From the NCBI GenBank assembly GCA_015661045.1, contig JACVQG010000094.1, forward strand, positions 1 to 10,222: a stretch of 10,222 nucleotides of DNA, written 5' to 3'. The notes below the pieces were generated by a model. The model saw only the letters and a list, made by a program, of their open reading frames with translations. It was not told where the DNA came from and did no database searches. This document shows positions 5,550-7,687 of this stretch, in pieces; the first letter of the stretch is position 1, and every line of letters begins with the position of its first letter. A program made the position numbers and the translations under genes. This DNA comes from Dehalococcoidia bacterium (lineage in GTDB: Bacteria > Chloroflexota > Dehalococcoidia > JACVQG01).

Positions 5550-5927
5550 ATGAGGATGATGCTGAAGAGTAAGATCCACAGGGCCACGGTTACTGAAGCC
5601 AATCTGGAGTACGAAGGAAGTATAACCATAGACCAGGAGCTTTTAGAGGCTGCCGATATACTGCCTTACGAGCAGGTTCAGGTGCTGGATATAAACAATG
5701 GCTCCCGACTGGAGACCTATGCCCTTCCCGGTGAGCGGGGCTCAGGCCGGATATGCATTAACGGAGCGGCCGCCCGTCTGGTATCTCAGGGGGATATGGT
5801 GATAATCCTCACATATAGCGCAGTCCAGGAATCCGAAGCATCATCCCTTCACCCCCGGATAGTTTATGTGGATGCGCAGAACCGCATTAAAAATAAGAAA
5901 AAAGAGGCGTTGTGGGCGATGTCCTGA
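5550..5927 (+). CDS. panD: Aspartate 1-decarboxylase (pyruvoyl enzyme)
   Basis: PanD converts L-aspartate to beta-alanine, one of the two halves of pantothenate. The 125-residue proenzyme matches the E. coli enzyme along its whole length. It has the self-cleavage site Y-E-G-S (G23/S24, where S24 becomes the pyruvoyl group), the substrate-side K8 and R53, Y57 as the expected proton donor, and the N-G-A-A-A loop at 71-75. The start follows a perfect AGGAGG at 5539-5544 with a 5-nt spacer, which favours this ATG over the nearby internal Met codons. The last 16 bases overlap the next gene, suggesting coupled translation. The C-terminal tail is lysine-rich and diverges from E. coli, as is usual. 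The identification is secure. Confidence 0.97.
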   Translation: MRMMLKSKIHRATVTEANLEYEGSITIDQELLEAADILPYEQVQVLDINNGSRLETYALPGERGSGRICINGAAARLVSQGDMVIILTYSAVQESEASSLHPRIVYVDAQNRIKNKKKEALWAMS

Positions 5928-7687
5928 GCCAGACGAAGGATGTAGACCCCCACCTTCTCGACCCTTTCCAGTTGAATGCCGATGAGGGGCAGGACAAGGT
6001 GGTCAGTGTTAAGGAAGCTATTGCTAACAATGTCCGGCCCGGCATGGCTATCCATTTTTCCAAAGAGGCCGGGGGTTTAATACGGGAGCTTTCCCGACAG
6101 TTCTGGGGAACCCATCCCGACTTTACGTTCATTGCCTATATAGTTGTCAATCATTCCCTGGTTCCGATCTACGGCAGGCTGGCTAAAAAACTTATCGCCT
6201 CCAACTGCACTCATATCTATCCCTCTCCCGGCCCTATAAAGATAATCCAGCAGCTTTATAAGCAAAAAGAAATACAGATAGAGAACTGGTCTCTATGCTC
6301 TTTGCAGCAACGGCTCATGGCAGGGGCTATGGGCGTGGGATTTATGCCCACCCGGTCTATTATCGGTAGCAGCATGGCTAAAGAGAACCAGGGATCCTTT
6401 ATGGAGATAGACGACCCTTTTAACACAAATGGAAAGGTGGGAATCCTCAGCGCGCTTCAGCCCGATGTCTCTTTTATCCACGGCTGGGCCGCAGACCGCA
6501 ATGGCAACACTATCCTCCTCGGCCCTTACGATGAGTCGCTATGGGGGCCGAGGGCCAGCCGTAATGGGGTTATTGTAACCGTAGAAAAGCTGGTCTCCAC
6601 CGAATTTATCCGGCAGCATTCTCACCTGGTAAAGATACCGGGGTCTATGGTCAAATCCGTCTCCGTAGCGCCGTTTGGCGCTCACCCCTGGGGGCTGGGG
6701 AACCACGGTTTGCCCGAGATAGACGCGTATAAAGAGGACTACGACTTTATGAATACCATGCGCCGGGCCAGCGATAGCCCGGTTTCTTTTGATGCTTTCG
6801 TAAAAGAGTGGGTATTGGAACCTTCCAGCCACGAAGACTATCTGCATAAGCTGGGAGAACAGAGACTCAACCACCTCCAGGAGTTGGGGAAACCCCGGGC
6901 CTGGGAGGAGGAGATAAAGAAAGCAACCATTTCCCTCGATGAGACTTTTACAACCTCTGAAATGATGGTTGTAGCGGCGGCCCGACAGATACAGGCTAAA
7001 GTCCGCCTTCACGGATACCAGGCTATTCTGGCAGGGGCCGGCGCCTCCGCTTTGGCGGCCTGGCTGGCTTATTACCTGTTCAAAGCCCACGGCGAGGGTG
7101 TGGAGCTGATGATGGGGGCCGGGCTGGCGGGTTATGCCCCCCGCCCCGGCGAACCGGTCATAACCTCCACCGTCCATTTCCCTGCCGCTCGCATGCTAAC
7201 CGATAGCACGGATATGTATAGCGTAATAGTGGGTGGGGCGAATAACCGGTGTATTAGCTCCCTGGGGGCAGCCCAGATAGATAAGTATGGCAATATTAAC
7301 ACCACTCGCGTTGGGAATTTCTATCTTATGGGCTCGGGTGGAGGCAATGATGCCGGCGCCAGCCAGGAAACTATAGCAATCGTCCGGCAGTTGAAAGAAA
7401 GATTCGTAGACAAGGTTGACTACATTACCACGCCGGGGCAGCGGGTGAAGACACTGGTATCACAACTGGGTATCTTTGAAAAGCTGGACAATAATGAGTT
7501 TACTTTGACGGCTGTCCTACCAGGCCGCCCACTTGTTTCGATTGCAGAGCGTATTGAAATAGTAAAAAAGAACTGCGGCTGGAATCTCCGCGTAGCTGAT
7601 AACGTCCAGGGGATCTCCCCGCCAATGGCGAAAGAACTCGAACTACTGCGGCTTCTGGATTCGGACCGGTTTTTCATTGCGGACTAA
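5912..7687 (+). CDS. Fused glutaconate-CoA-transferase-like protein (GctA-GctB) lacking the catalytic Glu
   Basis: This 591-residue protein is a family I CoA-transferase fold with both subunits in one chain. Residues ~28-325 match GctA: I-D-D-P-F (166-170), A-P-F-G-A-H-P (253-259) and F-D-A-F-V-K-E-W-V (293-301), followed by D-Y-L-H-K-L-G. Residues ~345-575 match GctB: G-A-A-Q-I-D-K-Y-G-N-I-N (452-463), G-S-G-G-G-N-D (474-480) and V-D-Y-I-T-T-P-G (502-509). The GctB segment holding catalytic Glu54 (V-E-S-G-L) reads M401-G402-A-G-L here, so the thioester-forming glutamate is replaced by glycine. The start is GTG at 5912 behind AAAGAGG (5901-5907), inside the end of panD. Without that residue ordinary CoA transfer is doubtful. 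A hydrolase or C-C-cleaving role like that of the Glu-less IpdAB enzymes is a possible alternative. Its substrate and its link to pantothenate are unknown. Confidence 0.88.
   Translation: MGDVLSQTKDVDPHLLDPFQLNADEGQDKVVSVKEAIANNVRPGMAIHFSKEAGGLIRELSRQFWGTHPDFTFIAYIVVNHSLVPIYGRLAKKLIASNCTHIYPSPGPIKIIQQLYKQKEIQIENWSLCSLQQRLMAGAMGVGFMPTRSIIGSSMAKENQGSFMEIDDPFNTNGKVGILSALQPDVSFIHGWAADRNGNTILLGPYDESLWGPRASRNGVIVTVEKLVSTEFIRQHSHLVKIPGSMVKSVSVAPFGAHPWGLGNHGLPEIDAYKEDYDFMNTMRRASDSPVSFDAFVKEWVLEPSSHEDYLHKLGEQRLNHLQELGKPRAWEEEIKKATISLDETFTTSEMMVVAAARQIQAKVRLHGYQAILAGAGASALAAWLAYYLFKAHGEGVELMMGAGLAGYAPRPGEPVITSTVHFPAARMLTDSTDMYSVIVGGANNRCISSLGAAQIDKYGNINTTRVGNFYLMGSGGGNDAGASQETIAIVRQLKERFVDKVDYITTPGQRVKTLVSQLGIFEKLDNNEFTLTAVLPGRPLVSIAERIEIVKKNCGWNLRVADNVQGISPPMAKELELLRLLDSDRFFIAD

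Follow-up and report, generated by a model that had tools for sequence, protein, structure and literature searches.

Family I CoA transferases such as glutaconate CoA-transferase (GctAB) combine two CoA_trans domains with a catalytic glutamate in the beta half, Glu54 of GctB, and several described proteins of the same fold work without this residue. IpdAB, assigned as a COCHEA-CoA hydrolase, has Gly57 of IpdB at the Glu54 position (PMC5380842), and family II enzymes of this fold transfer through a ternary complex without a covalent glutamate (PMC5534430). In the 3-methylglutaconyl-CoA decarboxylase AibAB, Cys56 of AibB and the GctB glutamate align with one and the same position of a related beta chain; the Ala, Ser, Asn and Val mutants of Cys56 reportedly did not lose decarboxylase activity, and Glu72 of AibB was a possible back-up proton source in a published calculation (PMC7756340). 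Glu-less relatives of GctAB are already known, and the lack of the glutamate does not make a new kind. Here we describe a single-chain GctAB-like protein of 591 amino acids, encoded at 5912..7687 on the forward strand of a 10,222-nucleotide stretch of DNA (the window; contig JACVQG010000094.1) from a Dehalococcoidia bacterium whose genome assembly (GCA_015661045.1) is 2.14 Mb long and ~67% complete. The protein has Gly402 at the position of the catalytic glutamate, and its gene overlaps panD in a pantothenate operon.

According to the reading that we favour, and hold with even confidence, this is a working enzyme with the GctAB fold; it would act on a CoA thioester but, unlike family I, form no enzyme-glutamyl-CoA adduct, and it would be co-expressed with the synthesis of a CoA precursor. 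As far as our searches show, the single-chain Glu-less type, its Tyr436 signature and its repeated place after panD are new; a search for this family in a pan operon found no account in the available text of the literature collection searched.

Catalytic positions and active-site types

Both halves of glutaconate CoA-transferase are present in one chain, as a first-pass annotation of this DNA had proposed. Pfam places two CoA_trans stretches in the protein (alpha half about residues 22-320, beta half about 345-591), and GctA and GctB are both matched over almost their full length by the family profile A1, which was made from 59 of 121 collected rows. AlphaFold predicts the structure with confidence, and the model best matches GctA, SCOT-type single chains, IpdA and AibA/AibB; only the best chain per PDB entry was kept, hence IpdB does not appear as a separate match. 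The gene is intact, with a ratio of nonsynonymous to synonymous substitution rates (dN/dS) of ~0.14, indicating purifying selection, so that a reading as a decaying pseudogene was ruled out.

The catalytic glutamate itself is missing. In the profile A1 alignment, Gly402 (codon 7115..7117) aligns with the glutamate that lies within V-E-S-G of GctB and S-E-N-G of human SCOT, and the Glu-to-Gly change noticed in the first-pass annotation is confirmed. E398, which that annotation had named as an example of a residue whose placement at the catalytic position would overturn its reading, lies four residues away in the alignment and is Glu in 71 and Asp in 72 of 168 aligned family rows (window protein, homologues and genome loci, which are unevenly related and include near-copies); it was rejected as a displaced catalytic glutamate. 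The E46A and E46S variants of CtfAB had no activity (PMC12400318), so ordinary ping-pong transfer should be lost in the window protein; Glu to Asp turned CtfAB into a hydrolase. The broader claim that classical transfer should fail overlooks family II enzymes, which transfer without a covalent glutamate (PMC5534430).

On the alpha side, the first-pass annotation was right to compare the protein with IpdAB as a Glu-less relative and wrong in its choice of Glu124 (codon 6281..6283) as the equivalent of IpdA Glu105. Located at chain index 117 (where 6co6_A has Glu, and 6coj_A, from the entry titled E105A, has Ala), Glu105 faces Leu128 of the window protein (codon 6293..6295), where SCOT and GctA have Gln, and an acid occurs at position 128 in only 1 of the 168 rows. 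At the position of Glu124, GctA and SCOT also have Glu, and IpdA has Arg. The family retains Glu124 almost throughout (167 of 168 rows), and so do its Glu402-bearing members (68 of 69); Glu124 is therefore no mark of Glu-less chemistry. Taken as a whole, the earlier interpretation keeps its Glu-to-Gly change and its coupling to panD but loses its catalytic residue. Residue 128 probably shares a column with Gln98 of CtfA. In CtfAB, Gln98 contacts the catalytic Glu46 and acetate (PMC12400318).

A second GctAB-like system of the same genome served as a control. In a pair of genes on contig C49, E112 aligns with IpdA Glu105 and Thr stands at the beta position; this is the IpdAB pattern, and the alignment method therefore detects that pattern where it is present. 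As an IpdAB-type candidate, this two-subunit pair (L081:1456-2376 and 2373-3188) is preferable to the window protein. The idea that the window protein is the only Glu-less GctAB relative of its genome was rejected, as the C49 pair also lacks the glutamate.

Among the 168 rows, residue 402 is G in 92, E in 69, A in 3, and M, T, D or a gap in one each, and the family divides along this position. Every one of the 99 rows without Glu402 has Tyr or His at residue 436, against none of the 69 with Glu402, where L (52), M (16) and R (1) are found. Tyr436 of the window protein (codon 7217..7219) is a candidate acid/base residue; the residue facing it is Phe in SCOT, CtfB and AtoA and Val in GctB. Residues 98, 100, 109, 380 and 449 also vary by type (90 G versus 65 E rows). 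On a 95-row tree built without the type-linked columns, the 402/436 switch requires two changes, corresponding to one independent pair on supported branches and two on all branches. The pattern is exact, and the events are few.

Two further variants of the active site were seen. A family member with Asp402 and Tyr436 (L192:2782-4518, genome G738) may be a natural hydrolase, since Asp at this position turned CtfAB into one (PMC12400318). A third type has Ala, Thr, Met or a gap at 402, a shortened loop and His436, and is found in L004:442-2154, L005:5995-7707, P0090, P0094, P0111 and P0115.

The slot after panD

The gene starts with GTG, immediately preceded by a purine-rich stretch, and shares 16 bases with panD (aspartate 1-decarboxylase, 5550..5927, forward strand); the overlap reported earlier is real. 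How often the family occupies this slot was surveyed in 393 genomes of the class, a carrier being a genome with a family match at E 1e-60 or better. There were 35 carriers with 40 copies, a count that may miss some, as only three candidates were scored in genomes with more. Surroundings were fetched for all 40 copies (the window plus 20 and 19 stretches) and panD was identified by BLAST. Seven of the 35 carriers, from five families of the class, have it on the same strand immediately before the gene (G000, G001, which is a relative of the same genus, G102, G137, G031, G003 and G159). The pan linkage is thus repeated in other genomes, and seven is a lower bound, several loci being cut by contig ends; 33 of 40 copies were not seen beside panD, and 28 carriers had no visible linkage. 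In a further genome, G138, the S58-DUF2520-panD series reaches the contig end and the slot is unreadable.

The surroundings of the seven loci agree upstream and vary downstream. Genes for an S58 peptidase and a DUF2520 protein precede panD in 7/7, although in L111 and L117 the contig ends within the S58 gene. Downstream, panB and panC follow in L111, L116 and L117, a Cas4-like gene and then panB in the window, and an isoleucyl-tRNA synthetase gene in L110; L114 and L141 end with their contigs. In 20 hand-picked, non-random panD loci whose slot holds no such gene (15 from genomes that lack the family and 5 from genomes that have it elsewhere), panB was the next pan gene, at ~135 bases or less or overlapping, in 20/20. 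Pantothenate synthesis in general thus does not require the gene.

Tree tests, restricted to 49 rows of known context, indicate that the slot was filled more than once. A single clade of the seven pan-linked rows was rejected (p 0.0013), so that pan linkage cannot serve as a clade marker; one clade was marginal for the five pan-linked Gly402 rows (p 0.033). In a separate test, one clade was not rejected for the Glu-bearing rows (p 0.49). Tests that left near-copies of unknown context outside the group, for example P0006, close to L110, were unfair and were not used (p 8.5e-5 for the seven rows and 5e-40 for the five). Parsimony gives five changes of pan linkage on the tree of the 49 rows. Because several deep branches are weak, we claim at least two insertions or in-place replacements after panD, possibly five. 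Moreover, the pan-linked copies in L111 and L141 are Glu-types. With two of seven keeping the glutamate, pan linkage does not signal loss of that residue; the two are separate traits, and the role in the pan operon is not tied to one active site.

Outside the slot, several Gly402 relatives stand beside genes of acyl-CoA metabolism. Among Gly402 rows of known context, 14/19 are not pan-linked, and the neighbours of some of these by Pfam include a methylmalonyl-CoA-mutase-like gene with a B12 domain (L191 and L194; L191 also has a Mo-cofactor enzyme), MutE with a B12 domain and a family III CoA transferase (L146), a family III CoA transferase (L118), and genes for a thiolase-like protein (L142), enoyl-CoA hydratase (L112), SDR (L115), ETF (L126) and a MaoC-like protein (L127). 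By eye, L119 and L120 showed no acyl-CoA-type neighbour. Glu-types L193 and L196 also adjoin thiolase-like genes; an acyl-CoA setting therefore does not separate the types. The B12-dependent mutase subunits in one row with Gly402 members (L191:80-3882, L194:5104-8989 and L146:2079-7080) point to possible branched or dicarboxylic acyl-CoA substrates of these relatives.

The distribution beyond the class was also sampled. A phylum-wide draw of 301 genomes held three carriers; each belongs to this class, and the window's own genome is among them. In the class of genome G656 (L003) the family is present in 8 of 85 genomes, and inspection by eye of seven stretches from that class revealed no pan genes near it. 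In genome G209 (L144:4460-7187), a Glu-type member directly follows a panB-like gene and a gene for a 311-aa protein with no significant Pfam or NCBIfam match; neither of these two genes is found at the corresponding site of the related L122 and L158.

Within the window, the gene of an S58 (DmpA-type) peptidase (3755..4663, forward strand) stands upstream of panD; in relatives, this gene frequently opens the same cluster. It is followed by that of a DUF2520 Rossmann reductase (4667..5533, forward strand), which from its position we take to be the candidate ketopantoate reductase of the operon; a PanG was reportedly described by Miller et al. in 2013. In B. subtilis, the name PanG denotes YkpB, of the ketopantoate reductase family (PMC11487621). 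Between the GctAB-like gene and panB (ketopantoate hydroxymethyltransferase, 9010..9846, forward strand) lies the Cas4-like nuclease gene (7989..8660; TIGR00372, E 1.3e-9, below the cut-off), and no CRISPR gene was noticed among the window's open reading frames, with no search aimed at CRISPR. The start of panC, recognised by eye, occupies 9900..10222 on the forward strand and is cut by the window end. Upstream of the operon, 85-2528 holds a ferredoxin-like gene and one for an aldehyde ferredoxin oxidoreductase (NF007354), and 2625-3473 encodes a protein of 282 aa that Pfam did not match and in which three similar stretches were seen by eye.

Function of the pan-linked protein

In accordance with the favoured reading, the window protein would still bind acyl-CoA, and Gly402 and Leu128 would leave its pocket without either known catalytic glutamate. 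Tyr436 may supply an acid/base group or a hydrogen bond, and the reaction would be a C-C or thioester cleavage by a decarboxylase, lyase or hydrolase, probably nearer to AibAB than to IpdAB. AibAB-like direct cleavage is our first choice, a preference drawn from active-site anatomy, since neither of the two known catalytic positions carries its glutamate; the active AibB Cys56 mutants mean that a fold of the GctAB type can perform C-C cleavage without an acid residue there. Co-expression with panD would let CoA precursor supply and the CoA-ester reaction rise together, perhaps releasing trapped CoA. The place directly after panD in 7/35 carriers and the acyl-CoA genes beside non-pan Gly402 relatives both speak for an active enzyme of this kind, as do the purifying selection, the inactive CtfAB variants and the tie between residues 402 and 436.

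Several observations weigh against it. The panD-then-panB order of all 20 gene-free slots is one, and the two Glu402 copies among the seven pan-linked loci are another, since a function in the pan operon need not depend on Glu-less chemistry. The tie between 402 and 436 has too few independent events for a test (one supported pair), and the placement of Tyr436 in the active-site pocket is a prediction from sequence. Active AibB Cys56 mutants may lean on the second acid, Glu72 (PMC7756340), and family II already provides Glu-less transferases of this fold (PMC5534430). That the window protein is itself such a transferase, like MdcA or CitF, with donor thioester and acceptor acid bound together and no covalent adduct, seems unlikely to us: sequence and fold scores are nearer to GctAB than to CitF/MdcA, the CitF match (E 0.039) reaches only 13.4 bits against a cut-off of 27, and no acyl-carrier-protein gene was seen by eye among the window's open reading frames of at least 80 aa, no aimed search having been made. 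An IpdAB-type C-C hydrolase using Glu124, the reading of the first-pass annotation, appears very improbable. IpdB likewise has Gly at the Glu54 position (PMC5380842) and Glu124 is nearly invariant in the family; however, Glu105 faces Leu128, an acid is almost never found there, Glu124 is kept equally in Glu402-bearing relatives and in GctA and SCOT, and the C49 pair of the same genome has the glutamates arranged as IpdAB does.

The position of the gene could also have meanings other than catalysis. PanZ, a CoA-dependent protein able to regulate PanD (PMC4410942), sets a precedent for a catalytically dead sensor of CoA or acyl-CoA that controls PanD, and the panD overlap and the at least two family lineages at the same place fit such a functional analogue. 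Binding to PanD would be purely hypothetical here, and most Gly402 rows are not pan-linked, several standing beside acyl-CoA genes, so that Gly402 is no sign of a dead enzyme; we regard the sensor as quite improbable. Alternatively, the pan operon may be a favourable place for expression, where genes for CoA-ester reactions were inserted repeatedly without shared function. Gly- and Glu-types both in the slot, the many copies not seen beside panD and a Cas4-like gene also adjoining the GctAB-like gene in the window are as expected from such neighbourhood, but not the same strand, the place directly after panD and the overlap or near-overlap in five families; this explanation is doubtful, although to be taken seriously.

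A wider interpretation would unite these loci. GctAB-fold proteins with or without the glutamate may have been recruited more than once after panD to couple the CoA/acyl-CoA pool to pantothenate synthesis, either as PanZ-like partners of PanD or as acyl-CoA cleavers that return trapped CoA, the Glu-less ones acting through an undescribed site centred on Tyr436. We consider this distinctly unlikely as it stands. A gene repeatedly placed in the vitamin B5 operon allows CoA-pool control to be tested directly. In addition, proteins named glutaconate CoA-transferase split into Glu-bearing members, which are perhaps transferases, and Glu-less members with an altered active site, for which the label may mislead.

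Comparison with known systems

PanZ is a GNAT-fold protein, and its likeness to the window protein, as a CoA-related protein tied to PanD, is an analogy only, with no homology claimed. The family II acyl-carrier-protein transferases MdcA and CitF share the fold, the single chain and a chemistry that needs no covalent glutamate adduct, but their sequence similarity is weak and they serve an acyl carrier protein. GctAB of Acidaminococcus fermentans (1POI) is the best sequence match and agrees in the fold of both halves and in family motifs; the window protein differs in being one chain, in Gly at the catalytic glutamate, in Leu at the GctA Gln and in its pan operon. IpdAB of steroid catabolism (6CO6/6COJ) has the GctAB fold and Gly at the beta position, whereas it consists of two subunits and carries Glu105 where the window protein has Leu128. 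AibA/AibB (5MZW) has a similar fold, a non-acid residue at the glutamate position and, by alignment, Gly at alpha position 128, where the window protein also lacks an acid; AibAB differs in its two subunits and in Cys56, in place of which the window protein has Gly402.
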